A stretch of DNA of 64,000 nt, from contig NZ_JAYMGI010000002.1 of assembly GCF_035825295.1 (NCBI RefSeq), positions 4,822,501-4,886,500 of the forward strand, given 5' to 3'. The notes beneath the pieces were generated by a model, which had not been told where the DNA came from, searched no databases, and saw only the letters and a program-made list of their open reading frames with translations. The DNA is from Actinacidiphila sp. DG2A-62 (GTDB lineage: Bacteria > Actinomycetota > Actinomycetes > Streptomycetales > Streptomycetaceae). Made by a program: the position numbers and the translations under genes. The first letter of the stretch is position 1. Every line of letters begins with the position of its first letter. Shown piece by piece: positions 6,429 to 24,252 of the stretch.

Positions 6429-6431
6429 GCG

Positions 6432-7904: not shown

Positions 7905-7934
7905 GGCAGCGGCCTCCTTGGGTCGGTCCGAGCG

Positions 7935-9478: not shown

Positions 9479-10899
9479 CGGCGATCACCTCCCTGTCCCG
9501 GTGTGGTGCCGTTGTTGCCCGGTCCCGGGCCGCGCCCGGGGCCGCTCCTGAACGGTGAGCCGCTCATCGGTCCGCCCGAGCCGCCGCCGCGGCCGGTGGA
9601 GCCGCTGCCGCCCGAGCTGCCCGTACGGGAGCTGTGCGCGGCCATGCCGCCGGCCATCGGGTTGGCGGGCTGGGCGCCGCCGCCCTGGGCCTGCTCCTGC
9701 GGGCCGCCGCGGGCGCTGTGGGTCTTGATGCCCTGCTTGACCAGGGCGGCGGGCGAGGAGATCACGGCGGCGGCCTGTGCGGGGCTGCCGCCGCCCGCCG
9801 CCTTGCGGCCGTTGCGCAGGTTCACCACGTCGTCGCCGAAGCCCGGGACGAAGCGGTAGATCATGAAGCTCGCGAAGATCGCCAGCAGGATGATGGCCAG
9901 GCCCGAGACGACCGCGGAGAAGGCGTCCGGCCCGTCGTCGGAGGACGACAGCGCGCCGGCCAGGCCCAGCACGATCACGATCACCGGCTTGACCAGGATC
10001 ACCGCGATCATGATGCCCGCCCAGCGCCTGACGTGGTGCCACATGTTCTTGTCCACCAGGCCGGCGTACACCGCGGTGCCCAGCAGCGCGCCGACGTACA
10101 GCAGCGCGGCGCGGATCACCAGCTCCAGCCAGAGCACGCCGGCGGCGAGCACCGACACCATGGAGACCACGATCAGCATGATCGGTCCGCCGCCGATGTC
10201 GTCGCCCTTCTTCAGCGCGGCCGAGAACGACCCGAAGAACACGTCCGTGTCGGACTTGGTGCCCGAGGACACCACGGTGGTCACCGCGTCGGTGGCCGAC
10301 ACCACGGTGTACAGCACCAGCGGGGTGAACGCGGAGGCGAGCACGGTCAGCCACAGGAATCCGACGGCCTCGGTCAGCGCCTCGGTCAGCGGCACGCCGC
10401 GCACCGCGCGCTTGGCGACGGCGAGCAGCCACAGGATCAGCGTCAGGATCGTGGACGCGGCGAACACCACGGCGTACTGCCGCAGGAACGCGGTGTTCGT
10501 GAAGTCCACCTGCGTCGTCTTGGTCACCGCGGCGGCGAGCTTGTCGATCGTCCACGAGGCGGCTTCGGCGCAGCCCTTGCCGAGGGAGGTGAGGGGGTCG
10601 AGGGAGTCGGTGGGGTTGGTGCCCTTCGCCGGCGAGGAGGTGTCGCCCTTGGTGCAGTAGTCCTTGGCCGCGCCGATCAGTCCGTCGCACGGGTTGGACG
10701 TGACCACCGGGCCGCCGCCGACCTTGCCCGACGGGGTCGGGGTGGGGGTCGGGGTGTCGGCGAGGGCCGTGCCGGAGGCCAGCGCGACCAGCGCCCCCGC
10801 CAGCACACCGGTCAGCGCGGCGCGCAGCGGCAGACGGGACGGCGCCCGGTGCGGGACCGGGGCAGCCGCCCGTGTCGGGACACGCCTGCTACCTGGCAT
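9475..10899 (-). CDS. TrbL/VirB6-like conjugal transfer membrane protein
   Basis: This 474-residue polytopic protein starts with a signal-like segment (about 20-46) and a short Cys-containing periplasmic stretch (SNPCDGLIGAAKDYC). About six membrane helices lie between 140 and 370, and a Gly/Ser/Pro-rich cytoplasmic tail makes up the last 100 residues. This layout is that of TrbL/VirB6 channel components. The ATG at 10899 has GGAGGG seven bases upstream and overlaps the 3' end of the preceding gene by 11 nt. Its stop overlaps the next start as GTGA. It probably forms the inner-membrane channel of the apparatus. Confidence 0.78.
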   Translation of the reverse strand: MPGSRRVPTRAAAPVPHRAPSRLPLRAALTGVLAGALVALASGTALADTPTPTPTPSGKVGGGPVVTSNPCDGLIGAAKDYCTKGDTSSPAKGTNPTDSLDPLTSLGKGCAEAASWTIDKLAAAVTKTTQVDFTNTAFLRQYAVVFAASTILTLILWLLAVAKRAVRGVPLTEALTEAVGFLWLTVLASAFTPLVLYTVVSATDAVTTVVSSGTKSDTDVFFGSFSAALKKGDDIGGGPIMLIVVSMVSVLAAGVLWLELVIRAALLYVGALLGTAVYAGLVDKNMWHHVRRWAGIMIAVILVKPVIVIVLGLAGALSSSDDGPDAFSAVVSGLAIILLAIFASFMIYRFVPGFGDDVVNLRNGRKAAGGGSPAQAAAVISSPAALVKQGIKTHSARGGPQEQAQGGGAQPANPMAGGMAAHSSRTGSSGGSGSTGRGGGSGGPMSGSPFRSGPGRGPGPGNNGTTPGQGGDRR

Positions 10900-11716
10900 A
10901 GGTGAACCCTCCGTACTGCTGTACGGCACCCGAGATCTCGTCCGCCGTGGCGGCCTGGTCGTCGCCGTTGACCGGCGCGGGCCCCTGCTTCTGGGTGGAG
11001 GACTGGATCTTCCAGTCCCCCGCGGTCCACACCAGCTTCTCGCTGACGGTGAACCAGGATGACGACACCGGCTTGGTGGAGCCCTGGCCGGCCAGTCCGG
11101 ACAGCGCCGTGCACCACACGTCGACGCTCACCGCGTCGGGGGCCGAGGCGGTCACCTTGGCGCCGACCGGGACCGTACGGGAGACGAACGTCAGTCCGGC
11201 GGGCGCCGTGCCGTCGGAGGTGAGGCCGAGAGCCTTCTCCGCGTCGGCGGAGTACGCCCGGTCCAGGGTGCTCTGCAGGGCGGCGCTGACGGAGGGCGCG
11301 TAGACGGTGGCCACGATCTCGTGCCGCCGCCCCGCGTTGAACATGTCCACCCCGCCCAGCGCCACCGCGTAGTTCGCCGCCGCCGACTGCGCCCCCTGGA
11401 CGCTGTGCGCGAACCCCGCCGGGATGCCCGCGGTCTTCGACGTCACCGGCCGCTGCCCGGTCGGCGCGGTCGCGGAGGCCGCCGAGGAGCCCTTGGCGCC
11501 GCCGGCCTTGGTCCCTGACGTGCCGTCCGCCGCGGCGGAGCCGTCGCTCTTGCCGCCGCGGTTGGCGAACGCCAGCGCCGCGATCAGCAGCACCACCACG
11601 CCGACCACCGTCACCAGCGCGCGCCGCGGCTGCGGCTGGGTCCTGCGCCCGGTGCCGCCGGCGTGCTGCTCGGGCATCCGCGTCCTGGTGCCGGGCCCGT
11701 CCTCGCCGAGGCTCAT
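10889..11716 (-). CDS. membrane-anchored secretion-cluster protein
   Basis: This 275-residue protein has a short basic N-terminus, one membrane anchor at about 33-51, a low-complexity Ser/Ala/Gly linker to about 95, and an extracellular domain of about 170 residues. The position between the pilin-like gene and TrbL, and the single anchor followed by a compact domain, recall VirB8/TcpC-type proteins. I see no diagnostic motif, so that assignment is only inference. The start overlaps the small upstream gene as ATGA. Confidence 0.62.
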   Translation of the reverse strand: MSLGEDGPGTRTRMPEQHAGGTGRRTQPQPRRALVTVVGVVVLLIAALAFANRGGKSDGSAAADGTSGTKAGGAKGSSAASATAPTGQRPVTSKTAGIPAGFAHSVQGAQSAAANYAVALGGVDMFNAGRRHEIVATVYAPSVSAALQSTLDRAYSADAEKALGLTSDGTAPAGLTFVSRTVPVGAKVTASAPDAVSVDVWCTALSGLAGQGSTKPVSSSWFTVSEKLVWTAGDWKIQSSTQKQGPAPVNGDDQAATADEISGAVQQYGGFTYAR

Positions 11717-11880
11717 CGCTCCTCCACTCCGCGCGCCGCGGACGCCGCGGGCACGCGGCGGGCCCCCGGCACGCCGGGCGTCCCGGGTGCCGCGGGCATG
11801 CCGGGGCCGCCGCCGGGCATGCCGGGCATGCCGGGCCGGCGCGTGGCGCGGACGGCGCCGCTGCTTGGTTGAGTGGGCAT
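11713..11880 (-). CDS. small Met/Pro/Gly-rich protein of the secretion cluster
   Basis: A 55-residue frame contains MPGMPGGGPGMP-type repeats and ends in ATGA overlap with the next gene, which supports translation. ATG 11880 is used; a GTG six bases earlier is better spaced from GAGG. It has no membrane segment and no recognised family. It may be a cytoplasmic accessory, or only a coupling ORF. Confidence 0.45.
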   Translation of the reverse strand: MPTQPSSGAVRATRRPGMPGMPGGGPGMPAAPGTPGVPGARRVPAASAARGVEER

Positions 11881-11996
11881 CAGCACGCAGCCTCGATCGG
11901 AGCGATGGAGCCTGGGACGGGCTCCTGGACGTGGTCGGAGGCGCTGTACGGCCGCTGCGCGGGCCGCCGTACGGGCCCCCGGGTGGGCCGGGGCGG

Positions 11997-12305
11997 CTAC
12001 ACGGCCATCCCGTACACGATGGTGAACAGCGTGCCGAGCGATCCGATGATGAACACGCCGGTCAGTCCGGCGATGATCAGGCCCTTGCCCTGCTCCGCGC
12101 TGAAGGTGTCGCGCAGCGCCGTGGCGCCGATCCGCTGTTTCGCGGCACCCCAGATCGCGATGGCCAGGCACAGCAGGATCGCGGCGGCCATGACCACCTC
12201 GATCATCACACGTGCTTCGTTGCCGAGGGAACCGAAGGGTCCCCAGTCGGGGGCGATGCCACCGATGATGGTGTTGATGTCGCCCTTCGCGGCTGCCAGG
12301 AACAT
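11997..12305 (-). CDS. small two-helix membrane protein, possible VirB2/TrbC-like pilin
   Basis: This 102-residue protein has two hydrophobic helices (about 34-52 and 73-96) separated by a short basic loop (GAAKQRIG). That is the size and topology of VirB2/TrbC pilin subunits and of the first gene in actinomycete type IV-like clusters. ATG 12305 is preferred over a TTG at 12353 because GGTGGT precedes it. A gap of 116 nt separates it from the small downstream gene. Function as a pilus or channel subunit is inferred from position and topology. Confidence 0.62.
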   Translation of the reverse strand: MFLAAAKGDINTIIGGIAPDWGPFGSLGNEARVMIEVVMAAAILLCLAIAIWGAAKQRIGATALRDTFSAEQGKGLIIAGLTGVFIIGSLGTLFTIVYGMAV

Positions 12306-12650
12306 GTAACTCACCACCCCGCTCGACCAGTTGGCTCCCTCGCCGGGGCGCAAGGGGCCAGGTTCCAGTTTGACGGAGGATTCCGCTGTTGCATGTCGAC
12401 TGAGTGACTTTCTCGGCGGATCGTCCGTGTGATCCGGCCCGCAACCCCCAGACTGGGGTGTGGACCGGTGTTCGAAGGACAGAGACGACTACTCTGTGTA
12501 TCACGAGCATCACCCCAGGGCAACGATGAGAACGTGTGAGCGGGACATCCGGAAAGTCCGGGGTCGGCGCGGCCGCGGCGGCGGCCGCGCCGTCCGGCAC
12601 GGGCGGCGGCGTCGGCACGTCCGACGCGGACGGGAAGCGGGAGGGGCGTC
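12306..12650. promoter_or_regulatory. divergent intergenic region, secretion cluster / cell-wall hydrolase
   Basis: This 345-nt region separates the minus-strand secretion operon from the plus-strand hydrolase and must carry both promoters. It holds the short palindrome CCCCAGACTGGGG near 12447-12459. No convincing -35/-10 pair or extra gene was found; a frame starting at GTG 12536 is rejected. Confidence 0.4.
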
Positions 12651-13658
12651 GTGGCGCGCAAGGTCTGGCTGGCCGTCATCATCGGCGTGGGCCTGAGCTT
12701 TTCGTTCCTCGCGCTGCTCGTCGTGGGCACCTACTCCGCCGCGGCCGGGCTCGCCAAGGGCGGCGGCGGCCGGGTCACGCTCGCCAAGGGCACGGTGCCG
12801 GCCGTGTACCAGCCGCTGGTCCAGCAGTGGGGGAATCTGTGCCCCGCGCTGAACCCGGCGCTGCTGGCCGCCCAGCTGTATCAGGAGAGCGGCTGGGACG
12901 CCCGGGCGCAGAGTCCCGCGCAGGCGCAGGGGATAGCGCAGTTCATCCCCGGCACCTGGGCCACCCACGGCATCGACGCCAACGGCGACGGCAAGGCCGA
13001 CGTGTGGGACCCCGAGGACGCGATCCCCTCCGCCGCCTCCTACGACTGCGAACTCGCCTCGTACGTCAAGGACGTGCCGGGGAACATCACCGACAACATG
13101 CTCGCGTCGTACAACGCCGGCGCGTACGCGGTGATCAGGGCCGGCGGGGTGCCGCCGTTCGCCGAGACGCAGAACTACGTCAAGCGCATCCGCACCCTGG
13201 CCGGCAGCTTCGCCGCGCCGGCCGGCACCGTCGCGCCCTCGCAGCAGGCGGCCGCGGCGATCTACTACGCGCAGCAGCAGCTGGGCAAGAAGTACCTGTG
13301 GGGCGGCGAGGGCACGGCCGCGCAGGGCGGCAGGTTCGACTGCTCGGGCCTGACCCAGGCGTCGTACCGCTCGGTCGGGATCACGCTGCCGCGGGTGGCG
13401 AACGACCAGTGGAACGCCGGCCCGCACCCGGCGCGCAACCAACTGCTCCCCGGGGACCTGGTCTTCTTCGCCTACGATCTGAACGACCCGCGGTCCATCC
13501 ACCACGTCGGCATCTACGTCGGCGGCGGGTACATGATCGACGCGCCGCACACCGGCGCGGTGATCCGGTTCGACCCGATCGACTCGCCCGACTACATCGG
13601 CGCGACGCGGGTCACCCAGGCGGGCGCGCAGGCGCTGCCGACGGCCACGGGCGTGTGA
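12651..13658 (+). CDS. bifunctional lytic transglycosylase / NlpC-P60 peptidase
   Basis: This 335-residue peptidoglycan hydrolase has an N-terminal membrane anchor (5-28), a goose-lysozyme/SLT-like domain and a C-terminal NlpC/P60 domain. The SLT-like domain has catalytic Glu near 79 in YQESGWDARAQS, with QGIAQFIPGTW following. The NlpC/P60 domain has Cys 231 in RFDCSGLTQ and His near 285 in HHVGIYVGGGYMID. It would open the wall locally by cutting glycan strands and peptide stems. Such enzymes accompany type IV secretion systems in Gram-positive bacteria, and its divergent position fits that role. The GTG start has GGGAGGGG just upstream. Confidence 0.88.
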   Translation: MARKVWLAVIIGVGLSFSFLALLVVGTYSAAAGLAKGGGGRVTLAKGTVPAVYQPLVQQWGNLCPALNPALLAAQLYQESGWDARAQSPAQAQGIAQFIPGTWATHGIDANGDGKADVWDPEDAIPSAASYDCELASYVKDVPGNITDNMLASYNAGAYAVIRAGGVPPFAETQNYVKRIRTLAGSFAAPAGTVAPSQQAAAAIYYAQQQLGKKYLWGGEGTAAQGGRFDCSGLTQASYRSVGITLPRVANDQWNAGPHPARNQLLPGDLVFFAYDLNDPRSIHHVGIYVGGGYMIDAPHTGAVIRFDPIDSPDYIGATRVTQAGAQALPTATGV

Positions 13659-14101: not shown

Positions 14102-14854
14102 ATGGCAGAGGTCGCTAACGACAGCGTGAACCCCGACATCAGCCTGCTCCGCGACATCAACGGACTGGCCCGGCAGGCGCCGCACGGCGTGGACCGCGGC
14201 GTCGAGATCCTCGGCGAGTACGGCCTGGTCGCCCTGTGTCTGCTGCTGGCCGGCTGGTGCTGGTGGCGGGTGGCCCGCCGGGCGCCGCGCGCCGAGGCTC
14301 CGGTGGCCGTCGCCGGGGTGGCCTGGGCGGTGGCCGCGGGCGCGGTCGCCCTGCTGCTCGCCGTGCCGGTGCGCGCGCTGGTCCAGCGCCCCCGCCCGTA
14401 CACCGAGCACGACGGCCTCGACGTGCTGATCCGTCCCGGCCACCACTTCTCGTTCGTCAGCGACCACGCGGCCCTCACCGCGGCCGTGGCGGTGGGCCTG
14501 TTCATGGTCAGCCGCGGCTGGGGCACGGTCGTTATAGTGCTCGCGCTCGCGGAGGGCTTCACCCGGGTCTACCTCGGCGTGCAGTACCCCACCGACGTGA
14601 TCGGCGGGTTCGCGCTCGGCGCGGCGACGGCGCTGCTGCTCGCGCCGCTGGGGCTGGCGCTGTTCACGGCGCTCGCGCGGAGGGTCGCGGGGACGCGGGC
14701 GGCGCCCCTGGTCCACGCGGCGCGCGCGGGCGCGGGCGGCGGCGGGGGCACGGCCGCCGCGTCGGGGTCTGCGGCGTCCGCGTCGGCGTCGGCGGCGACT
14801 CCGCCGGGCGCGGCGGCGCGGCCGAGCGCGGCGGACAACGACTTGGCGGCGTGA
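14102..14854 (+). CDS. PAP2-superfamily phosphatase-like membrane protein
   Basis: This 250-residue protein has about five membrane helices. The three PAP2 motifs are recognisable: RALVQRPRP at about 91-99, FVSDHAAL at about 118-125, and TRVYLGVQYPTD at about 154-165. In motif 3 the family's nucleophilic His is replaced by Gln 161 (codon CAG), which should reduce or remove lipid-phosphate phosphatase activity. The Ala/Ser-rich C-terminal tail (about 200-250) is low complexity. ATG 14102 is the probable start; ATG 14078 is an alternative closer to TATA-like sequence. Substrate (undecaprenyl pyrophosphate or another lipid phosphate) is unknown. Confidence 0.8.
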   Translation: MAEVANDSVNPDISLLRDINGLARQAPHGVDRGVEILGEYGLVALCLLLAGWCWWRVARRAPRAEAPVAVAGVAWAVAAGAVALLLAVPVRALVQRPRPYTEHDGLDVLIRPGHHFSFVSDHAALTAAVAVGLFMVSRGWGTVVIVLALAEGFTRVYLGVQYPTDVIGGFALGAATALLLAPLGLALFTALARRVAGTRAAPLVHAARAGAGGGGGTAAASGSAASASASAATPPGAAARPSAADNDLAA

Positions 14855-14900
14855 AGCGCCCGGCGGGAGGGCGGGCTGCGGCGCGGGCGCCGGCGGCCGG

Positions 14901-15536
14901 TCAGCTCTTGCCGATCGTGCTGGGGATGCAACGGATGCCGTGCATGAACCGGTCGAGGTCAGGGAGTGCTTCGACGAACCGGTCGTGGTCGTTGGCCATC
15001 AGGAACGCGTGCACGTCGGTGGCGAAGGCCTCGTTGCGGAAGATGTAGTTGACCTGGTCGTAGGGGCCTTCGAGCTCGCCGTGCCAGGATGCCCGGACGC
15101 CGGTGCCCAGGTTCTCCGTGGTGATCCAGTCCGCGACGGGCGTCGTCGTCGCCGTCTTGGTGCCGCCGTACGCGTAGTACTGGATGGCCTCCTCCCAGGT
15201 GCCCATGGTTTTCCACAGGCCCACGGCGAGCAGCAGCGGAACTTTGGTGTAATCGGGGCAGTGCAGATAGAGCATGTGTCCGGCGATGTGTCCGGCGGCT
15301 TCGTGGTGGGCCCGCACCAGCCGCTCGGCGAAGGGGAGGACTTCTTTCTTGACGACCTTTTTGGTGAGCGTCCGCCCGCCGCGCAGGAAGCGGTCGCAGG
15401 CGTTTTCGTAAGCCCACTCCGCGGCGTCCGGCCATTTGATGCCCTTGAAGGCCAGCGGCATGAGAAACCACCGGTCCCGGTCGTAGTCGATCTCGGCCCA
15501 GTTGTCGGTCGTCGTGCGGTGGTCGAAGTCCGTCAT
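14901..15536 (-). CDS. hypothetical protein of the type VII secretion unit
   Basis: This 211-residue soluble protein is rich in Trp, Tyr and charged residues and has no signal peptide or membrane segment. I do not recognise the family. Its ATG overlaps the stop of the preceding gene (ATGA), so it is the fourth gene of a tightly coupled operon with a WXG100-like protein and a T7SS-signal protein. A chaperone, immunity or effector role is possible, but the sequence does not decide. The gene ends convergent with the PAP2 gene, 46 nt away. Confidence 0.68.
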   Translation of the reverse strand: MTDFDHRTTTDNWAEIDYDRDRWFLMPLAFKGIKWPDAAEWAYENACDRFLRGGRTLTKKVVKKEVLPFAERLVRAHHEAAGHIAGHMLYLHCPDYTKVPLLLAVGLWKTMGTWEEAIQYYAYGGTKTATTTPVADWITTENLGTGVRASWHGELEGPYDQVNYIFRNEAFATDVHAFLMANDHDRFVEALPDLDRFMHGIRCIPSTIGKS

Positions 15537-16138
15537 GCCGTCTCCTCCTGCCTGACCCACCGGAAGGTGCCCATGATCGCGTCGAACAACGCGCACAGCA
15601 GCTTGGCCGTACGGTCGTCCGGATCGCCCTCGCCCACGGTGGAGAAGGACGAGACGAGCCAGCTGTCGGGCGTGGCCGGCACCGGGAGGATGTACTCCAC
15701 CCGCCGCGACGGGTGGTCGACGTCGCGGGCCGGATCGGCGTCGTACGTCCGCTCGGTGCGCAGGCCGGAGGTGCCGTCCAGCTCCACCGGCTCGCCCGCG
15801 CCGGCGCTGGTGGCCAGGACCTCGGCGAGGACGTGCCGCGGATCGGGGGCGTCGGGCTTGCCGAACTCGGCGTACGACACGAGGAAGGAGGCCGGCAGGT
15901 TGCGTTCCGGCCGCCCGAAGGGGAGGTACAGATCCACTCCGGCGTTCTGCCGCGCCTGAGCCACGAGTGACTGCAGCCGGTTCGCCAGCTCCCGGCGGTA
16001 CTGCGCGACCTGGTCACGGCTGTGCTTGGCGAAGGCCTCGTCCAGCAGGGCCGCGATCGCGCGGTCGGCGCCGCGCCGCACCGGGATCTTGCGCCATTCC
16101 CTCGGTACCACGAGCCGGTAGCCGCTCACGGGGATCAT
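15533..16138 (-). CDS. hypothetical protein, type VII secretion accessory
   Basis: This 201-residue protein begins MIPVSGYRLVVPREWRKIPV, with no signal sequence and a mixed alpha/beta composition. Proteins with this kind of N-terminus commonly sit beside WXG100-like genes in streptomycetes and are thought to be cytoplasmic ESX accessory proteins (EspG-like position); this is recalled, not checked. Its start overlaps the upstream gene by 4 nt and its stop overlaps the downstream start by 4 nt. Confidence 0.66.
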   Translation of the reverse strand: MIPVSGYRLVVPREWRKIPVRRGADRAIAALLDEAFAKHSRDQVAQYRRELANRLQSLVAQARQNAGVDLYLPFGRPERNLPASFLVSYAEFGKPDAPDPRHVLAEVLATSAGAGEPVELDGTSGLRTERTYDADPARDVDHPSRRVEYILPVPATPDSWLVSSFSTVGEGDPDDRTAKLLCALFDAIMGTFRWVRQEETA

Positions 16139-17484
16139 GAGCCGATCTCCCGGGTGGTCAGTTGCTTCAGCCGGCCGAAAGTGTCCCAGTGCGGGGAGGT
16201 GTCGCCCTCCAGTTGCGGGTGGCTCACACCGCCTTCGAAGTCGTTGCCGATCCAGTTGATGAGGTCGCTGCCGCCCGCCCAGTGGCCGAACTCGTCGGCG
16301 ACGTTGGCGGCCCCGTTGGCGAACCGCACCGCGTGGAGCACGCTGGCGCTGCGGGCGAGGGCGTTGGGGAAGAGCCGGGTGTCGGGGAACTCCTCGGCGA
16401 GCGCGCGGAGTTTGGCGAGGTGCTCGACGACTTCCTTCTCGCCGCCGGCGAGGAACTTCTGCCCGACGGCGCGGCCGTAGTCGGAGAGGGCGGAGGCGGC
16501 GCGCTGTCCGATGGTCTGGCTGACGTCGAGCGGCAGCTCCAACCTCTCCGTCAGTGTCCTGGCGACGTCTTCACCGATGTCCTCCACCGGCGTCCGCACC
16601 GTCTTCGCGACGGACTCGGCGAACTCGGTGGAGTTCTTGAGCAGCCCCTTGGCCCAGGTCGCGGTGCCCAGGGTCGCGAGCGCGACGATGTCGAGGCCGA
16701 CGTCGATCCAGGAACCGTCGCCGGCCAGGGCGAGCGAGGTGTGGCCGAGGAGGGCGGTCAGCATCAGGCCGGCGAGCAGACCGGTGGCGATGTCGAGGCC
16801 GGGGATGAAGAGGGAGGCGATCACCAGGGCGGTGACGATCCAGGTGCAGACATCGGCGAGCAGCTTGATGAGCTCGGCGTGTTCGTGGACGAAGTCCTTG
16901 AACTTGTCCCAGCGGCTGTCCTTGAGCCCGTCGTGCTCGGTGTCCTCGATCTTCTGCTTCCAGTGGCTTGCGCGTTCGTCCCGCTGTTCCTTGATGCGGG
17001 CCAACTGGTGTTTGGCGGCGTCGAGTTCGCCCTGCGCGGCGTGACGGGCGCGGTCGGCGGCGTCCTGCTGCTGCTTCTCCTCGGTGGTGAGGTGCGGTGC
17101 GGGTGAGCCGGGTGCGGGCTCGGCCTCCGGTGCGGTGGCGGTGGTCGCGACGGCCTGGGCACGGGCGAGCGCCTTGAGGGAGTCCGCCTGGCACTGGTCG
17201 AGGTCGTCGGCCCAGCTGCCGAGGTAGCCGGAGACGTGCTCGTAGCGGGCGGCGACCTTGTCCAGGCCGTCGCGCAGGTCGGTCGCGGTCTCCCGCATCG
17301 TGTCGGCGAACTTCCCGATGTTCTCGTCGCCGGCGATCGCCTTGAGCAGGGTGATCTGGTCACGGATGGTTCCGGCCATCCGGCCCAGCCGGTTCGCCTC
17401 CTCGCGTATCTCCTGCGGATCGCCCGGCACCGGGTCCGCGCTCTCGCCGAGGACGGCCCACTCCGCGTCGGACGGCCTGCTCAT
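16135..17484 (-). CDS. putative type VII-secreted protein (T7SS signal domain)
   Basis: This 449-residue protein has an N-terminal helical region with ADPVPGDPQEI at about 16-26, the signature of the T7SS-signal domain of actinobacterial substrates. Long coiled-coil helices follow (about 30-200, with a Glu/Lys/Gln-rich stretch at 130-175), then a hydrophobic segment (about 220-265) and a C-terminal region with no recognised toxin motif. It would be exported with the WXG100-like partner encoded just upstream. The start overlaps the partner gene (4 nt). It may be a structural substrate or a polymorphic-toxin scaffold whose toxic domain is unknown. Confidence 0.72.
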   Translation of the reverse strand: MSRPSDAEWAVLGESADPVPGDPQEIREEANRLGRMAGTIRDQITLLKAIAGDENIGKFADTMRETATDLRDGLDKVAARYEHVSGYLGSWADDLDQCQADSLKALARAQAVATTATAPEAEPAPGSPAPHLTTEEKQQQDAADRARHAAQGELDAAKHQLARIKEQRDERASHWKQKIEDTEHDGLKDSRWDKFKDFVHEHAELIKLLADVCTWIVTALVIASLFIPGLDIATGLLAGLMLTALLGHTSLALAGDGSWIDVGLDIVALATLGTATWAKGLLKNSTEFAESVAKTVRTPVEDIGEDVARTLTERLELPLDVSQTIGQRAASALSDYGRAVGQKFLAGGEKEVVEHLAKLRALAEEFPDTRLFPNALARSASVLHAVRFANGAANVADEFGHWAGGSDLINWIGNDFEGGVSHPQLEGDTSPHWDTFGRLKQLTTREIGS

Positions 17485-17786
17485 TCCCCGTGCCGCGCCT
17501 TCGCAGGCCGGTCGAGCCCGTCCTTCAGCTTCTTGTCGACGTCCTTGAAGGCTTCCAGGGTCTTCTCCGTCATCTCGCCCATGGCCTGGATCTTGTCCAG
17601 CAGCTTGTGCCGGTGGTAGTCCCAGTTGCTCGCGAAGTCGTGCATCGCGTGCGCCATGTCGCCGGAGCCGAGCGAGTCCTTGATGTCCGCCTGGTGGTGC
17701 TTCGTGTCGTCCAACTCGCGTTGTATGGCTTTCAGGTGGCGCGAGGACTCCTCGAGCGTTTCGTACGAGACCCTGAGATCCGTCAT
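17481..17786 (-). CDS. WXG100/ESX-like small secreted protein
   Basis: This 101-residue all-helical protein has the helix-turn-helix pattern of the WXG100 superfamily. The turn region reads FASNWDYHRHKL at about 52-63, with Trp at the expected position but no strict W-x-G. ATG 17786 is chosen; the open frame upstream has no support. It heads a four-gene operon with 4-nt overlaps throughout, which implies stoichiometric co-translation with the T7SS-signal protein. No ESX ATPase (EccC) is in this window. Confidence 0.7.
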   Translation of the reverse strand: MTDLRVSYETLEESSRHLKAIQRELDDTKHHQADIKDSLGSGDMAHAMHDFASNWDYHRHKLLDKIQAMGEMTEKTLEAFKDVDKKLKDGLDRPAKARHGE

Positions 17787-17984
17787 ATGAACCAGGCTTT
17801 CAATCCTACGGAACTCGAACAAGCGCTTCCGGGGAAAGGGCGGGCAAAGAAGCAGCCGTCCCGGCCCGCCGCTCGGCGCGCACGGCGCGGCCTCCCGGCG
17901 CGCCGGCCCGTGAAGGCGTTGTGAATCGTGCTGCAAACCCGTACCGATCGTGGGACGGCACTACAGCCGCGTGCGGGCCGCCGG

Positions 17985-17990
17985 TACTGT
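17985..17990 (+). promoter_or_regulatory. -10-like element of cassette 1
   Basis: TACTGT lies in GCCGGTACTGTCGGTGTC, 80 nt before the lipoprotein start. The same block recurs as GCCGGTAGTGTCGATG at 19776-19781 and 20719-20724, about 70 nt before the starts of cassettes 2 and 3. Conservation between cassettes suggests a shared promoter; no clear -35 is visible. Confidence 0.4.
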
Positions 17991-18034
17991 CGGTGTCCAG
18001 GCGTACGGCATCGTCGGCGACGATCCGCGCGCCG

Positions 18035-18276
18035 ACTCGACACACCGGACACTCACGGGGGACCGCAACGTGACTCGCTCTTCCCTGCCCGTCGCCGTCG
18101 CACTCGCGGCCGCGGGGGGCCTGCTGCTGACCGCTTGCGGCGGGGGCGGTTCGGACAGCTCCGACAAGATCGCGACCTCCGCCCCGCCGGCCACCTCGGC
18201 GGCACCGACGACCACCGCCCCGCCCACCCAGCCCGCCGGCCGAAGGCCCCGACGTTCGCCCTGCCGCCGGACGCCA
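18035..18276 (+). repeat. direct repeat copy A (5' end of lipoprotein gene)
   Basis: About 240 nt, from GACTCGACACACCGGACACT through the leader, signal peptide, Thr/Pro linker and CTGCCGCCGGAC, is nearly identical to 19817-20075. After this point the two genes diverge. The likely cause is a recent duplication or gene conversion of the 5' part only. Confidence 0.75.
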
Positions 18277-18725
18277 AGGTGGAGTTCGAGGGTTTCGAAG
18301 ACCCCGACGCCGCCAAGCAGTCGGTGCTGCGTGACGTGAAGAACGTGATCATGACCATGCAGGAGGCCGAGGGAGAAGGCAAGGGGAGCACGCCCAACAT
18401 CAAGCGGTACTTCACCCAGCTTCAGGGTGCCAAGTTCTCCGACGACGTCATCGCCTATCGCAAGCAGGGCCTGACCATCACCGGCACCGTGAAGGACTAC
18501 CGGCCGATCGTGTCATTCGACGCCAAGGACCGTGCGCAGGTCAGCTACTGCGAGGACGAGAGCAAGGCGTTCGACAAGGTGATCGCCACCGGGCAGGTGC
18601 GCCGCACCAGTCCGTCCCTCAAGGACTTCAGCCTGTGGCACATGGGTCTGTCCAAGAACGCCGCCGGGGACTGGCAGTTGGTGGATTACTCCCAGCAGAA
18701 GGGTGTGGGCAAATGCGCAGTGTGA
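18070..18725 (+). pseudogene. lipoprotein of cassette 1, frameshifted
   Basis: The GTG start at 18070 gives a lipoprotein signal with lipobox LLTACGGG (Cys about 22) and a Ser/Thr/Pro linker. The frame then changes by -1 near 18230-18245 (CCCGCCGGCCGAAGG). The downstream frame is clearly coding: KAPTFALPPDAKVEFEGF, a conserved YCEDESKAF block and a C-terminal KC. Restored, it would be about 218 residues, an NTF2-like-sized extracellular domain with two Cys residues that could pair. It is paralogous to the genes at 19853 and 20794. Its 3' end overlaps the secreted-protein gene by 13 nt. Function unknown; an assembly error or true pseudogene cannot be separated here. Confidence 0.65.
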
Positions 18726-19717
18726 TGCGCCGTCGCGCTCCGTTCGCCGCGCTGCTGGCGGGGGTGCTGCTCGGAGTGCTGGCCGGCCCGGCGTGGGCAG
18801 ACCGGGGCAGTGCGCCGACCCAACCGCCCACGCGCACGCCGGAGATACACAACGGGGAACTGTCCTCGCGAGTGTCCGTGACGGGCACCGGGACCCAGAG
18901 CGACGACAGCACGCAGCCCATCACCTCGGTGAACGCGAGCTTCACGCCGCCCGACTGCTGGTACGAGGCCCTGACCCCGGCCGAATTCGAGGCGTACCTG
19001 AACCAGCGTTACGACGACGCCGGCAACGCGATGGAAGACACCGTGTACGACTACCTGTACCAAATCAGGTCGGACATGAACGCCATCCACTACCACCAGG
19101 ACGACAAGGGCGCCTGGTGGGTCCTCGCGTACAACCCTGATCTGCCCGAGTACAGTGCGGGCACCTGCACCCTCAGCAATCCGTGGGAGTGGGTCAAGGC
19201 GGGCGATCCACCGCCTCCCGCGAGCGTGACCCCCGAAATGCTTTCCAAGGTGGCCTATGGTGCGACGCATCTGCGCAAGGGAAAGGTCGAGCTGAGCCCG
19301 GCGGCAGGCAATCAGAAGGTCAACCTCGCCACGTACTTGAAGTTCGAGGCGGCCCTGCCGGAGGTGTACGTCACCGCTCAGGTGCCGAACCCGCCGGTGG
19401 CGGCGACGGTGGTCGCCGATCCGTACTCCCTGCACGTCGAAGCGGGTACGAAGTGGGCCGACCCCTCGTCCTGCGACTACAAGTTCGTGAAGAACGGCGA
19501 CACCTACAACATCGACACCTCGGGTGCGGGGTGCAACATCACCTATCGCAAGTCCAGTAACGGCGGAACGTATCAACTCACGGCACAGATCACCTGGCAC
19601 GTCCACTGGACGGCGACCGCCGATCCGCACGGACCGGCGGCCGGGACCATGGACGACGGTTACACGACCGCTGTCCAGAACGTCACCGTCCGCGAGATCC
19701 AGTCCGTGAACCGCTGA
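18713..19717 (+). CDS. secreted protein of cassette 1, C-terminal beta domain
   Basis: This 334-residue protein has a Sec signal peptide (basic start, hydrophobic 10-26, AWA cleavage site near 28-30) and a Thr-rich spacer. A conserved FTPPDCWYEAL block (about 79-89) is followed by a C-terminal domain reading ITYRKSSNGGTYQLTAQI and ending in VTVREIQSVNR. The cassette 3 partner at 21447 has the same blocks. It contains four or five Cys residues. ATG 18713 lies 13 nt before the lipoprotein stop, as in cassette 3, after GAAGGG; ATG 18725 is the alternative. I do not recognise a function; it is likely to work with the lipoprotein at the cell surface. Confidence 0.7.
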   Translation: MRSVMRRRAPFAALLAGVLLGVLAGPAWADRGSAPTQPPTRTPEIHNGELSSRVSVTGTGTQSDDSTQPITSVNASFTPPDCWYEALTPAEFEAYLNQRYDDAGNAMEDTVYDYLYQIRSDMNAIHYHQDDKGAWWVLAYNPDLPEYSAGTCTLSNPWEWVKAGDPPPPASVTPEMLSKVAYGATHLRKGKVELSPAAGNQKVNLATYLKFEAALPEVYVTAQVPNPPVAATVVADPYSLHVEAGTKWADPSSCDYKFVKNGDTYNIDTSGAGCNITYRKSSNGGTYQLTAQITWHVHWTATADPHGPAAGTMDDGYTTAVQNVTVREIQSVNR

Positions 19718-19816
19718 TCGGACCTCCGAACAGAGGCGGCAGGGGAGCGGGCCACGGAGGCACGTCCTCCGCCGGTAGTGTCGATGCCGGGGCGTGACGA
19801 CGCGGTCACGACCGCT

Positions 19817-20075
19817 GACTCGACACACCGGACACTCACGGGGGACCGCAACGTGACTCGCTCTTCCTTGCCCGTCGCCGTCGCCGTCGCCGTCGCACTC
19901 GCGGCCGCGGGGGGGGGGGGGGGTTGCTGCTGACCGCTTGCGGCGGGGGCGGTTCGGACAGCTCCGACAAGATCGCGACCTCCGCCCCGCCGGCCACCTC
20001 GGCGGCGCCGACGACCACCGCCCCGCCCACCCAGCCCGCCGGCCGAAGGCCCCGACGTTCGCCCTGCCGCCGGAC
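19817..20075 (+). repeat. direct repeat copy B (5' end of lipoprotein gene)
   Basis: The second copy of the block at 18035-18276. It differs by an added GTCGCC repeat in the signal peptide and by a long G tract, and carries the same downstream frame change near CCCGCCGGCCGAAGG. Confidence 0.75.
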
Positions 20076-20534
20076 ATCACGACGGATTTCCGCGGATTCA
20101 CCAGCAGTGATCCGAAGCAGCAGGCGATCCTGACCGACGCCCGGTACGCGGCCACCGCGGTCCTGGAGTTCGAGGCGAAGATCTACACGAAGGAAACGCC
20201 GAACTTCAAGCGGTTCTGGACCGGTGAGCACGGTGCGGAGTTCGCCGACTCGATCATCGCGCAGGGCAAGGACGGCAGCGTGATCACCGGCTCGTACCCG
20301 TACTACAACCCCGTGGTGAAGCCCTTCTCCAACGGGAACGTGTCGGTGCGGTACTGCGAGGACCAGCGGAAGGCGTACGCCAAGGACTCCAAGACCGGCA
20401 CGGTGACGGTCACCACGCCCTCGCTCTCCGACTTCCGGTTGTGGACGCTGCTCATGATGAAGAGTCCTTCCGGGGATTGGACGGTTTACCACCACAGTTG
20501 GGTCCAGGGGGCGAAGCAATGCCAGGTCGCGTGA
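19853..20534 (+). pseudogene. lipoprotein of cassette 2, two frame changes
   Basis: From GTG 19853 the signal peptide reads into a tract of 15 G (19909-19923) and stops soon after. The lipobox part LLLTACGGGG is in another frame, and the mature domain (KAPTFALPPDITTDFRGF, YCEDQRKAYAKD, final KQCQVA) is in a third. The second change is at the same place as in cassette 1. Restored, it would be a lipoprotein of about 226 residues, paralogous to those of cassettes 1 and 3. Either the gene has decayed, or the G tract is hypervariable or mis-sequenced. Its 3' end overlaps a 29-codon remnant of the secreted partner. Confidence 0.62.
19909..19923 (+). repeat. homopolymer of 15 G in a signal-peptide coding region
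   Basis: Fifteen consecutive G replace the GGGGGG found at the same place in cassette 1. The length puts the lipobox out of frame with the start codon; 13 or 16 G would restore it. The tract is preceded by four GTCGCC-like units, another slippage-prone repeat. Confidence 0.85.
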
Positions 20535-20608
20535 GCATACGGAGCATGACCAGAGCGGCGACGGCCGCGGCGCTTTCCACCGACGCGTCGTCGCCGGCGG
20601 CGGCGTGA
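20519..20608 (+). pseudogene. 29-codon remnant of the cassette 2 secreted-protein gene
   Basis: ATG 20519 overlaps the end of the cassette 2 lipoprotein by 16 nt, as the partner genes of cassettes 1 and 3 do (13 nt). It reads MPGRVSIRSMTRAATAAA, a signal-peptide-like start, and ends at TGA 20606-20608. No partner domain follows before cassette 3. It is best explained as the leftover of a deleted secreted-protein gene. Confidence 0.5.
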
Positions 20609-20718
20609 CTGGACGCCGGCGCGTCTGCTCCGCCGCGTCCGGGGACTGGCTGAGACCGTCTGGCCGCGGTGTGGCGCATCGCAAGCCGAGCGGGCTACGG
20701 AGGCTCGTGTTCCGCCGG

Positions 20719-20724
20719 TAGTGT
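20719..20724 (+). promoter_or_regulatory. -10-like element of cassette 3
   Basis: TAGTGT in CCGCCGGTAGTGTCGATGTC is identical in context to the cassette 2 element at 19776-19781 and lies 70 nt before the GTG start of the intact lipoprotein gene. Confidence 0.4.
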
Positions 20725-20793
20725 CGATGTCGGGGCGTAGCCGTACGGCTACGCTCGCCGGCCTGATATCGGACACCCACGGGGGACTTCGAC

Positions 20794-21459
20794 GTGACCC
20801 GCTCTTCCCTGCCCCTTGCCGTCGCTCTCGCCGCGTCGGCGGGCCTGCTGTTGTCCGCTTGCGGCGGGGGCGGTTCGGACAGCTCCGACAAGATCGCGAC
20901 GTCGTCGACCGGACCGGCCGCCACGGCGGCTGCCACGACGACGGCGAGCGCCACCGCGTCGGATGAGGTCAAGCGGCCGTCCACGGCGCTGCCGAAGGAT
21001 CTCACGATGACCTTCGACTGGCCGCGTACGGGTGACGCGACGAAGGACGCGGTGCTCAGGGATGGTGAGCAGTACGTCAGGGCCCTCAAGCGAGCCAGCG
21101 CCGAAGGCGACATCAAGGACCCCGCGTACCTGTTCTACTCGCGCGACGACGCCCTGTCGTACGCGCACGACCAGATCAAGGCGAACATCGATGGCGGCTG
21201 GGCCCCGACGGGGCACGATCACTACTACGCCGCCAAGGTCGGTGTCGTGAACAGCGGCTCCGCGACGCTGAGCTTCTGCCGGGACCAGAGCAAGGTGTTC
21301 AGCAAGAACGTCAAGACCGGCAAGGTCGTGCGCGGCACGCCGAACGCCGACAGTTTCATCCTCTACAACCTGCTGCTCGTTCACGACAGCGCGTCGAACG
21401 GCGTCTGGCAGTCCTCTCGGATCACGGTCATCGAGGGGGCCAAGCAGTGCCGGATCTGA
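20794..21459 (+). CDS. lipoprotein of cassette 3 (intact)
   Basis: This 221-residue lipoprotein has a signal peptide of about 22 residues with lipobox LLLSACGGGG and a Ser/Thr/Ala linker (to about 55). The extracellular domain contains the family block LSFCRDQSKVF, a KTGKVVRGTP loop and a C-terminal KQC; the two Cys could form a disulfide. It is the only unbroken member of the three. The GTG start follows the conserved leader CACGGGGGAC. The 3' end overlaps the secreted-protein gene by 13 nt, indicating translational coupling. The domain size and pattern resemble NTF2-like/Mce-associated lipoproteins, but this is a guess. Confidence 0.75.
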   Translation: MTRSSLPLAVALAASAGLLLSACGGGGSDSSDKIATSSTGPAATAAATTTASATASDEVKRPSTALPKDLTMTFDWPRTGDATKDAVLRDGEQYVRALKRASAEGDIKDPAYLFYSRDDALSYAHDQIKANIDGGWAPTGHDHYYAAKVGVVNSGSATLSFCRDQSKVFSKNVKTGKVVRGTPNADSFILYNLLLVHDSASNGVWQSSRITVIEGAKQCRI

Positions 21460-22466
21460 GCAGGCCCCGCGCGTTGGTCTTCGCTGCGGCTGCCGGCCTC
21501 GTCGTGGCGCTCGTGCCGGCAGCCGACGCGGCGGCCAACGAGATTCCCAGCCAGGGGCACAACGCGGGCAGCCACGATCACACCCTCGACGCCTCCGCCT
21601 ATGCCGTCACGTATGAGCCGGCGGAGCCGCCCGCGGGGCATCCGATCGGGGCGGTCAGCGGGTGGACGCCGCCGGCGTGTTGGGTGGCTCCGGTGGCGAA
21701 GCCGGAGGAGTTGAAGGCGGAGCGCGAGGCGGTGTGGGCCGAGGGGTCGCCGGGGCCGGACTGGGTCGCGGGGCAGAAGGACTATTACGTCAACGGGCAC
21801 CCGCACAAGGACTTCGAGATCGCGAACTCCGGCAAGGGCTTCTGGTGGGACGGTCAGGTCAATCCCAACAGGCGTGGTGACCCCGCGTCGTTGACGTGCT
21901 TCAAGGAGCGCGACGACTGGGTGCCGACCGGGGACAGGCCGCCGGCCGGGCCGGTGGTCACGCCGGAGATCCTCGCGGAGTCGGCGTACGACCGGGTGCG
22001 CATCCCGGACAAGGTGGTGAACCTGTCGCCGGACGCCCTGCACACGCAGACCGTGAACGTGAACATCTGGGCCTGGCTGGACAGCGCGGACATCCCCCCG
22101 GTGTCGGTCACCGCCCGGCTGAACTCACTCGGCATCTGGGCCACCACCACGGCCACGCCGGTCGGCCTGCACCTGGACGCGGGCACGCCGTACGCCGAAC
22201 GCTTCCCGGCCTCGGGCGACTGCCCGATCGCCGAGGACGGCTCGGTGGGCGAGAGGTACCAGCCGCGCGACGGCAATACGGTGCTGCCGCCATGCGGCCT
22301 GGTCTACCGCAAGTCCTCCGACGGCGGGACGTACACCCTGACGGCCACGATCAGGTGGCGGGTCACGTGGAAGGGCAGCGGCGGCACCGGCGGGAGGCTG
22401 GACGACGGTGTCTTCGACCTTCCGCAGCAGGTCACGGTGAAGGAGTACCAGGCCGTCAACCGGTGA
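21447..22466 (+). CDS. secreted protein of cassette 3
   Basis: This 339-residue secreted protein has a signal peptide (hydrophobic 8-27, ADA cleavage near 26-29), a conserved GWTPPACWVAP block (about 72-82), a central region with GFWWDGQVNPN, and a C-terminal domain with LVYRKSSDGGTYTLTATIRW ending VTVKEYQAVNR. It is clearly paralogous to the protein at 18713. GTG 21447 has GAGGGGG upstream and lies inside the end of the lipoprotein gene. Function unknown. Proteins with this PPACW pattern occur as multicopy secreted proteins in streptomycetes, as far as I recall, without an assigned role. Confidence 0.72.
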   Translation: MPDLSRPRALVFAAAAGLVVALVPAADAAANEIPSQGHNAGSHDHTLDASAYAVTYEPAEPPAGHPIGAVSGWTPPACWVAPVAKPEELKAEREAVWAEGSPGPDWVAGQKDYYVNGHPHKDFEIANSGKGFWWDGQVNPNRRGDPASLTCFKERDDWVPTGDRPPAGPVVTPEILAESAYDRVRIPDKVVNLSPDALHTQTVNVNIWAWLDSADIPPVSVTARLNSLGIWATTTATPVGLHLDAGTPYAERFPASGDCPIAEDGSVGERYQPRDGNTVLPPCGLVYRKSSDGGTYTLTATIRWRVTWKGSGGTGGRLDDGVFDLPQQVTVKEYQAVNR

Positions 22467-22478
22467 CCCGCCCCCGAC

Positions 22479-22503
22479 CCGGGCGTTCGGGCGGCGCCCG
22501 GGG
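22479..22503. terminator. hairpin between convergent genes
   Basis: CCCGGGCG (22479-22486) faces CGCCCGGG (22496-22503) across a 9-nt loop in the 46-nt gap between the convergent secreted-protein and FAD-oxidase genes. It has no T run, as is usual for streptomycete terminators. Confidence 0.55.
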
Positions 22504-22512
22504 GCGGGGGGC

Positions 22513-24252
22513 TTACAGGGACTGGGGGTAGACGAACAGGCGGGTCGGGTCCAGGGTGGACTTCAGGGCGGCCAGGCGCGGGGCGTTCGGCCCGTAGTAG
22601 GCGGTGCGCCAGTCGGTCAGGGTGGGGTCGGTGTAGTTCGCGTAGGCGCCGCCGGACGCGTGGCGGCGCATCGCGGCGTGCAGGGTGTCCAGCCAGGACG
22701 TCGACGACAGGCCGTCCGAGGCGATGTACTGCGCGAGCACCCGCGAACGCCGGTGCGGGAACGCGGTGTCCGTGGGCGCCGGGCGGTTGACCGCGCCGCC
22801 GAGCGCGGTCAGCGCGACCGAGCCCGTACCGCTGCCCGACCGCGAGGACAGCCGCGCGACCTGGGAGAGCAGGGTGTCGACGCCGGCCGCGGACAGGTCC
22901 GCGTCGTAGAAGTCCGAGCGCGCGGTGTACGTCTCGCGGCCCAGGTCGCCCGCCGGCGGCAGGTGGCACTGCGCGACCGAGCGGCTCTCGCAGCCCGCGT
23001 AGGAGAACATCGCCTCCACGAAGCCGTGCGTGTGCACCGAGACCGACGAGGCGGGGGAGCCCGAGGCGTCGGCGAGCGCGTCGGCCGCCGCGGACAGGCC
23101 GGAGCGCGACCCGGTGGACAGCATCGGCACCGAGACGGTCGGCGCGCCGCCCGCGTCGCAGTCCAGGTGCAGCGCGGACCACAGGTGGTCCGGCTGGTCC
23201 GGCCCCCAGGACTGCCACGCCCTGACCACCGCGGCGGCCCGTGACCACGGCCAGGTGAGGTAGCCGGTGACGACCGAGGACGGCGCCGGGTGCGTGGTGA
23301 ACCGCAGCGAGGTGACGACGCCGAAGTTGCCGTTGCCCGCGCCGCGCAGCGCCCAGAACAGGTCGGGCTCGGCGTCCGCGGAGACCGCACGGGTCCGGCC
23401 GTCAGCCGTCACGATCGTCGCGCCGATCAGGTTGTCGCAGGTCAGGCCCATGGACCGGCTGAGCACGCCGTGCCCGCCGCCCAGTGTCAGACCGGAGATC
23501 GCCACGGACGGGCAGGAGCCGCCGGGGACGGTGCGGCCGCGGGCGCCCAGCGTGCTGTAGACGTCGATCAGCCGCGCGCCGGCGCCGATCGTGGCGACCG
23601 TGCCGTCCAGGCGGATCGAGTCGAGCTTGGAGACGTCGACGATCAGCTTCTTGTCGCCGCTGGACCAGCCCGCGTACGAGTGGCCGCCGCTGCGGATCGC
23701 CAGCGGCGTGGCGGTGCGCCGCGCGAAGTCCAGGCAGGCGCGGACGTCGTCCTCGCCGGTGACGTACGCGATCGCGGCCGGGCGCAGTCCGTCGAAGCGG
23801 GTGTTGTACAGCCGGCGGTCGGTCGGGTACGCCTGGTCCTGGGGGCGGACCAGCGTGCCGTGCAGGGACGAACCCAGCGCGGACCAGTCGGCCTTGGCCG
23901 GCGGCGCGGTCGTGGTACGGGTGGCGGTCGCGCCGGCGCCCGTGCCGGTGGTCGCGGAGGCGCTCGGGCCGCGCGGGGCGTCGTCGGTGCTGCCGCCGTC
24001 GTCGGTGCACGCGGTCAGCAGCGCGCCGGCGAGCACCGCGCCGCCGGCCAGCAGCGCGCCGCGGCGGTCGGCCCGCAGCGAGGTGACGCCCCTTCGGTCC
24101 GCGCGGGGCGGCGCGCCGGGGCCGGGCGTCGCGGTCGCGCCGGGAGCGGCGGCCGGGACCGTGCCCGGGAACAGGTCCGTGCCGGAGGCGGCGTCCGCCC
24201 CCGGGAGGGCGCCCGGGACCGCGTCCTCGCTCGGGTTCGTCCCGGTCTTCAC
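22513..24252 (-). CDS. FAD-linked oxidoreductase (berberine-bridge type) with lipobox
   Basis: The protein contains an FAD-binding PCMH domain with RSGGHSYAGWSSG, whose His is the usual site of covalent FAD, and GLTLGGGHGVLSR. It ends with the BBE domain (GAYANYTDP...DWRTAYYGPN...FVYPQSL). Upstream, AGGAVLAGALLTACTDDG is a lipobox, so the enzyme is probably exported and lipid-anchored. The start is uncertain: GTG 24252 (579 residues) is used, with a possible extension to GTG 24453 through a Tyr/Pro-rich stretch, and later starts nearer the signal peptide are possible. It would oxidise an unknown alcohol or sugar with O2. No partner gene is adjacent. Confidence 0.8.
   Translation of the reverse strand: MKTGTNPSEDAVPGALPGADAASGTDLFPGTVPAAAPGATATPGPGAPPRADRRGVTSLRADRRGALLAGGAVLAGALLTACTDDGGSTDDAPRGPSASATTGTGAGATATRTTTAPPAKADWSALGSSLHGTLVRPQDQAYPTDRRLYNTRFDGLRPAAIAYVTGEDDVRACLDFARRTATPLAIRSGGHSYAGWSSGDKKLIVDVSKLDSIRLDGTVATIGAGARLIDVYSTLGARGRTVPGGSCPSVAISGLTLGGGHGVLSRSMGLTCDNLIGATIVTADGRTRAVSADAEPDLFWALRGAGNGNFGVVTSLRFTTHPAPSSVVTGYLTWPWSRAAAVVRAWQSWGPDQPDHLWSALHLDCDAGGAPTVSVPMLSTGSRSGLSAAADALADASGSPASSVSVHTHGFVEAMFSYAGCESRSVAQCHLPPAGDLGRETYTARSDFYDADLSAAGVDTLLSQVARLSSRSGSGTGSVALTALGGAVNRPAPTDTAFPHRRSRVLAQYIASDGLSSTSWLDTLHAAMRRHASGGAYANYTDPTLTDWRTAYYGPNAPRLAALKSTLDPTRLFVYPQSL

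Follow-up and report, generated by a model that had tools for sequence, protein, structure and literature searches.

A lipoprotein and secreted-protein gene pair arrayed in Actinacidiphila sp. DG2A-62 as a probable accessory module of actinobacterial Tad pili

Introduction

The Tad/Flp (type IVc) pili of actinobacteria, the Kil Tad tips of Myxococcus xanthus, the type VII secretion system (T7SS) variants T7SSg and T7SSh of Gram-positive bacteria, and the RcpC-RcpA alignment complex of Pseudomonas aeruginosa are the closest described systems for the gene array analyzed here. The array lies in a 64,000-nucleotide (nt) stretch of Actinacidiphila sp. DG2A-62 (NCBI RefSeq assembly GCF_035825295.1, contig NZ_JAYMGI010000002.1, positions 4,822,501 to 4,886,500, forward strand), hereafter the window. 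It consists of three cassettes, each with a lipoprotein gene (A) overlapping a second reading frame, which encodes a secreted protein (B) where it is complete. The array is probably made up of several copies of a two-gene module (A-B) that is accessory to actinobacterial Tad/Flp pilus systems.

In M. xanthus, one Kil Tad machine is used with alternative gene sets exposing variable domains, and it is tied to a second, secretion-like apparatus (PMC12075869); use of one machine by several A-B sets is our inference for the present case. The Kil tips are minor pilins, whereas A is a lipoprotein and B is Sec-exported. No Kil-type prepilin N-terminus was found: a lipobox is present in 87 of the 90 A copies in the named loci defined below, and 19 B N-termini, judged by eye, carry Sec signals and lack a prepilin site. 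T7SSg and T7SSh always lie by Tad genes, for a reason left open (PMC11217815), and the adjacency of Tad genes to an EccC/EssC-type system is shared with our loci. T7SSg, in contrast, is hosted by Acetivibrio and Paenibacillus, and the text of that paper contains neither the word lipoprotein nor the word Streptomyces. In P. aeruginosa, an Ig-fold domain acts beside RcpC, which resembles the arrangement considered here; however, RcpA is an outer-membrane secretin and no outer membrane is expected in our organism (PMC12307814). With actinobacterial Tad/Flp loci themselves, A-B or its distant relatives share a position in or beside T2SSE, T2SSF, TadE and TadE/G genes, and the presence of A equals that of TadA in two genome samples. 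Unlike the known parts of these loci, neither A nor B matches a pilin or Tad family, and their cassettes occur in several copies, often at a great distance from the Tad locus.

We recognized no paper in the open-licence PubMed Central literature as describing the A-B pair, which is not proof of absence. From the sequence comparisons, the pair appears to be a conserved accessory of actinobacterial Tad pili for which we found no family name. In bacteria with a single membrane, the outer parts of Tad pilus machines are poorly characterized, and A-B would give a direct handle on them. The literature's open question of Tad genes beside type VII secretion genes would also become testable in Streptomyces.

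Pairing of A and B

The first-pass annotation, made from the window alone, had proposed a conserved gene pair. The relatives agree with it, and the rarity of adjacent relatives that it had named as fatal to the complex idea was not observed. A fourth, intact A-B pair lies elsewhere in the same genome (C2:5864142-5865862) and the pair recurs in relatives, so the window array is not a chance arrangement. Among 150 related genomes, matches at E <= 0.001 were found for B in 72 and for A in 56, the weakest A matches covering the N-terminal part only. Scanning the GTDB species genomes yielded, among the matches listed, 79 loci that have a record name; we call these the named loci (L and G numbers are our handles for loci and genomes). 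Here, 85 B copies span at least 200 profile positions, and A lies directly upstream of 82 of them; of the other three, L199 is at a contig edge, and L168 and L176 lack the upstream A. When the start nearest the A end is chosen, a choice that favors overlaps, the 81 pairs with a candidate start overlap by 13 nt in 40 cases and by 4 nt in 25. Over 78 pairs, the distances among A proteins track those among B proteins (r = 0.765, a value that none of 2000 permutations reached), a correlation for which linkage alone could suffice. The pairing is real and old. A and B are probably made together because their genes overlap, and a two-protein complex, as the first-pass annotation suggested, is plausible. 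Additional A genes downstream of B recur (L136, L144 and L155, for example), as in the window. One of the pairs (L138) belongs to S. albidoflavus NRRL B-1271.

A wider family surrounds these pairs. Among the matches listed, 59 B matches start at residue 130 or later. We took 57 of these weaker matches, which cover the C-terminal half only, leaving out two fragments of the close family (G014:C114 and G054:C166:32274), and at least 44 of the 57 have a TadA-like ATPase no more than 6 kb away. Three of the 57 (G016, G003:C81 and G004:C15) are likewise close-family fragments and fall outside the remaining set of 54 distant loci. With an A-like lipoprotein profile, an A-like gene was found directly upstream on the same strand in 51 of these 54, a count that is not profile-independent, since 48 of these loci went into the profile; some loci are also near-identical and not separate cases. 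The three missed are L237, which has an ordinary A upstream, L239, and L225, at a contig start. Profile comparison scored A-like against A at 98.3% (E 2.2e-14) and B-like against B at 99.9% (E 1.8e-35), with crossed controls at 0.2% and 0.1%, scores that favor kinship of each distant family with its close counterpart.

Distant B relatives also occur on Streptomyces plasmids, where the best 20 of 45 records are annotated as ATP/GTP-binding, ATP-binding or hypothetical protein. Our Pfam scan of B proteins, the plasmid ones lying outside it, detected no nucleotide-binding domain. The name ATP/GTP-binding protein for B relatives is put in doubt.

Association with Tad pilus loci

Genes were called and clustered in 40 fetched stretches together with L038, L040 and the window. 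A, mostly together with B, directly adjoins a cluster that Pfam matches in L071 to T2SSE, T2SSF (two), TadE (two) and TadE/G (one) show to be Tad. Its ATPase matches the NCBIfam TadA model TIGR03819 at 3.9e-69, below the cut-off, and three further genes of the Tad locus carry our own labels RcpC, TadZ and Flp. A or A-B stands beside such a Tad cluster in ten loci (L071, L073, L078, L079, L081, L084, L091, L099, L103 and L107) and in several further loci.

Using the L071-cluster ATPase as the query, we compared TadA of this class, which we label type 1, with A in two samples, at cut-offs that were picked after the gaps in E-values were seen. Sample 1 was the same 150 genomes, 91 of them from the organism's own genus and family. 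In these 91, A (E < 1e-10) and type-1 TadA (E < 1e-130) mark an identical 34 genomes, with none discordant. Sample 2 was 150 genomes of a second genus (g9), eight of them shared with sample 1, and there A (E <= 1e-8) and type-1 TadA (E < 1e-200) mark an identical 40, again with none discordant. The sample 1 cut-offs drop, in seven genomes, A matches at E 1e-4 to 1e-3 that cover the N-terminal part only (G005, G008, G020, G036, G046, G056 and G066 among G000-G090) and TadA matches weaker than 1e-130; those of sample 2 drop four genomes whose sole TadA match is at 1e-101 to 1e-106 (G151, G203, G239 and G263). At the order and class level of sample 1, A below 1e-10 occurs in G093, G094 and G112, all among the 19 genomes with TadA below 1e-130, and the remaining 16 of the 19 have no A at 1e-10. 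In the 91 genomes of sample 1 and the 150 of sample 2, the pair has the phyletic distribution of the type-1 Tad ATPase.

The match is not wholly due to linkage, because A and type-1 TadA are 196-1449 kb apart in eight genomes that carry both on one contig. The organism's own Tad locus (L110) is 1.45 Mb from the window array. On a quick tree of a second TadA class (type 2) in 80 of the 150 g9 genomes (39 positive and 41 negative, one positive genome lacking a type-2 gene being left out), the A/TadA state changes at least 16 times, 10 of them on independent supported paths. At least two A matches occur in 37 of the 40 g9 genomes with type-1 TadA, and we infer that several A-B sets serve one Tad machine. 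Type-2 TadA (L155) was rejected as a partner, being present in 146 of the 150 g9 genomes regardless of A.

Several points weigh against a Tad role. The cut-offs were set post hoc, and the p-values given in this work take genomes as independent. Not all of the family is encoded at or beside tad loci: a Tad-cluster gene lies within the fetched stretch in only 20 of 78 named A-B loci, and in the organism's own genome the pairs are not beside the Tad locus. Neither A nor B was found beside eight fetched Tad loci, the own locus L110 and L112-L118. Many g9 pairs look Tad-linked by their coordinates, and co-inheritance explains part of the match there. The M. luteus tad gene order in the excerpt of PMC4322843 names no such pair. 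The structural match of B described below is also weak. We regard the Tad link as strong and the mechanism built on it as a proposal.

Predicted structures of A and B

Neither A nor B scores above the cut-off of any Pfam or NCBIfam family, and searching solved structures by sequence produced no match spanning either domain. WXG100, T7SS_signal and Ecc domains of these databases were absent from A and B, and in 79 rows for B and 94 for A, no Pfam match at E <= 0.1 was to a secretin domain or a TPR pilotin. The model of A has a predicted local distance difference test score (pLDDT) of 89 and matches the CaMKII hub in Foldseek (E 1.6e-5, prob 1.00), ARC6 (VIA Z 12.3, root-mean-square deviation (rmsd) 3.1, 125 residues aligned) and, at a Z of about 9, proteins of the VirB8 type, which serve as scaffolds in envelope machines. 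These matches cover the domain, which is predicted to be NTF2-like.

The model of B has a pLDDT of 88. Its C-terminal half resembles an immunoglobulin (Ig) sandwich by a weak VIA match to filamin, the best at Z 6.9 (rmsd 3.0, 92 aligned), and gave no Foldseek match at E <= 0.001. In mature B, mean pairwise identity is 0.54-0.58 over residues 156-309 versus 0.40-0.42 over residues 21-125. A VxEIQxV-type end is found in all 81 B copies of the named loci that reach the C-terminus.

Proposed role

On the favored Tad accessory reading, A is a lipoprotein on the outer face of the cell membrane, displaying its predicted NTF2-like domain, and B is exported by Sec and probably bound to A, with a predicted Ig-like C-terminal half and a more variable N-terminal half. 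The complex would most likely sit where the pilus leaves the cell or at the pilus end. The first site is suggested by analogy with the Ig-fold RcpA domain on the RcpC ring of P. aeruginosa, and the second by analogy with the exchangeable Kil tips of Myxococcus. Many other Tad loci have one such pair each, and with the type-1 class the pair has been amplified, diversified and dispersed. Alternative pairs could then serve one pilus machine, perhaps as exchangeable end- or exit-pieces. Interchangeable parts are favored because there are several diverged, dispersed pairs per genome, and both the interchangeability and the site of action stay at the level of proposal.

A less likely special case, without exchangeable ends, is that A-B takes the place in a single-membrane cell that the secretin side has in Gram-negative Tad machines. 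By analogy, the Ig domain of B would dock on an RcpC-like ring as the RcpA N-domain does, A would act as a pilotin-like anchor, and additional copies would be duplicates of a basal part. The VirB8-type match of A fits such a conduit, as does the pair's position beside a putative rcpC in three other Tad loci (L090, L093 and L095). The P. aeruginosa precedent is a dodecameric RcpC conduit that binds the Ig-fold RcpA N-domain (PMC12307814). However, Ig folds are common, and our rcpC label comes from position and our own reading, with no family named by Pfam or NCBIfam. According to PMC8467076, citing Tomich et al., rcpC/cpaB is missing from Gram-positive tad loci; in contrast, PMC3244431 places rcpC among Gram-positive tad operon genes. 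A basal part that is amplified and diverged would be unusual, so the 17 A matches of G255 and the 13 B matches of G054 (B among the matches listed) count against it.

An extension of the Tad accessory reading, which we consider unlikely, is a composite contact apparatus in Streptomyces and relatives, built from a type-1 Tad machine, a genetically joined ESX system and dispersed, interchangeable lipoprotein-Ig pairs. If it were true, the pairs would pick what the pilus touches and hence where T7SS effectors act, and the apparatus would be the equivalent, in Gram-positive cells, of the Myxococcus Kil tips, made from non-pilin parts.

Neighboring secretion genes

The first-pass annotation had placed the array beside a type VII unit. 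The genes in question form the following trio, which is divergent from the array.

15533..17786, - strand: genes for proteins of 101, 449 and 201 amino acids (aa)

We read the 101 aa protein as WXG-like, its Pfam WXG100 match being at E 0.18 only, and the 449 aa protein matches T7SS_signal at E 1.7e-4, below the cut-off. Relatives of the trio are neighbors of A-B in G024 and G021, and the organism's own Tad locus is flanked by such relatives too. In G016, the gene order is Tad, A-B-A, one gene, A-B, EccC and a WXG-like gene. The proximity to T7SS genes thus stands as an observation, and the tie of A-B to type VII secretion is suggestive only.

It is very unlikely that the pair primarily serves the ESX/type VII system neighboring the type-1 Tad genes, for instance by offering its effectors a surface for docking or delivery, the Tad match then being secondary. 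Such a role draws on an EccC-like ATPase (FtsK part, E <= 1e-60) in 40 of 40 A-positive g9 genomes and 25 of 110 others (Fisher 1.5e-19). Of 78 named loci, 26 have a T7SS-like gene no more than four genes away from A or B, compared with 26 of 266 positions farther off in these loci, although the T7SS-like clusters are our own grouping and several of their representatives have no Pfam match. A WXG100_2-RHS-nuclease protein is also a neighbor of A-B in L159. But the EccC-like ATPase occurs without A in those 25 genomes, whereas type-1 TadA never does in these samples, and among the genes called in L090, L092-L095, L104 and L109, which hold distant pairs, none belongs to the EccC cluster.

The type IV-like cluster also noted beside the array is indeed present, as a conjugation-like set at window positions 4716-13658 with a VirB4/TraC-like ATPase, an SCO6880 family protein, an NlpC/P60-SLT protein and weak SCO6881 and TraG matches. 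This VirB4/SCO6880-type set was rejected as the partner of A-B: pairs elsewhere have different surroundings. The partner favored here is the Tad locus, 1.45 Mb away. A-B lies near relatives of this cluster in L072, L075-L077, L088 and L129.

The gap between the PAP2 and FAD oxidase genes (14854-22513 in the window; also in L075, L076, L077, L088 and L129) varies in content. It holds one A-B pair, A with A-B, the trio with A-B or, in the window, the trio with five genes, and we read it as a site of turnover.

The window array as sequenced

The features of the array are as follows.

17980..17990, + strand: GCCGGTACTGT block ahead of lipoprotein 1 with the -10-like hexamer TACTGT, putative promoter
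18070..18339, + strand: A1 N-terminal frame with signal peptide, lipobox LTAC and linker
18237..18725, + strand: A1 globular domain in a different frame, the gene being frame-broken as sequenced
18713..19717, + strand: B1 secreted protein, 334 aa, 13-nt overlap with A1
19771..19781, + strand: GCCGGTAGTGT block ahead of lipoprotein 2
19853..19933, + strand: A2 start and part of the signal peptide, the frame being lost at the 15-G run
19909..19923, + strand: 15-G run, the sole run of at least 9 G or C in the window
20049..20534, + strand: A2 globular domain in a third frame
20519..20608, + strand: 29-codon stub where B2 is expected, 16-nt overlap with A2
20714..20724, + strand: GCCGGTAGTGT block ahead of lipoprotein 3
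20794..21459, + strand: A3 lipoprotein, 221 aa, intact, lipobox LSAC, predicted NTF2-like domain
21447..22466, + strand: B3, 339 aa, intact, predicted Ig-like C-terminal half (weak match), 13-nt overlap with A3

The first-pass annotation had described three paralogous lipoprotein genes. Their GTG starts (18070, 19853 and 20794) and near-identical lipobox N-termini hold, but genes 1 and 2 are not single frames, and cassette 3 (20794-22466) is the only intact cassette in the window. The overlaps of the second frame with A were also borne out (13 nt in cassettes 1 and 3, 16 nt in cassette 2), as were the PPxCW and YRKSSxGGTYxLTA blocks in both B genes, at 18713-19717 and 21447-22466; the second frame of cassette 2, however, is a mere stub. 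With both strands scanned, the block GCCGGTA[GC]TGT occurs three times in the window, each time 80-90 nt upstream of an A start, and its hexamer TA[GC]TGT reads like a -10 element.

In A1 and A2, the lipobox frame differs from that of the globular domain, and the shift falls in the same linker stretch; A2 has a second frame change at the 15-G run. The two cassettes are 98% identical from the start to the linker (18070-18236 and 19853-20047; 163 of 167 aligned positions) and 66% identical in the domain (304 of 464). The near-identical 5' parts beside diverged domains suggest a likely recent gene conversion between cassettes 1 and 2, through which the same break could have reached both genes. 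Indel errors in the assembly could also explain the breaks, because the EccC gene of the same assembly is split as well. That gene, in L110 upstream of and including 17603-19258, is spread over two frames. A programmed frameshift in A1 and A2 finds no support, and conversion or indel error would account for the shared site.

It is very unlikely that the array consists of decaying, non-functional remnants of duplicated surface genes with no present role. The frame breaks in A1 and A2 and the stub in place of B2 speak for this, yet neither pair 3 nor the fourth pair elsewhere in the genome is broken, the A1 and A2 domains are stop-free, and the split EccC makes indel errors a possible source of the breaks.

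Phase variation through the 15-G run is possible, judging from this one locus. Apart from overlapping copies of 19909-19923 and the contig-start stretch of L192, the 3.0 Mb of fetched loci contain no run of at least 12 G or C. An A gene of S. afghaniensis (L154, 11716-12365) is frame-broken in the same linker region. In Streptomyces iakyrus (L163, 9998-11677), the B gene reads in frame into the following A, a natural B-A read-through.

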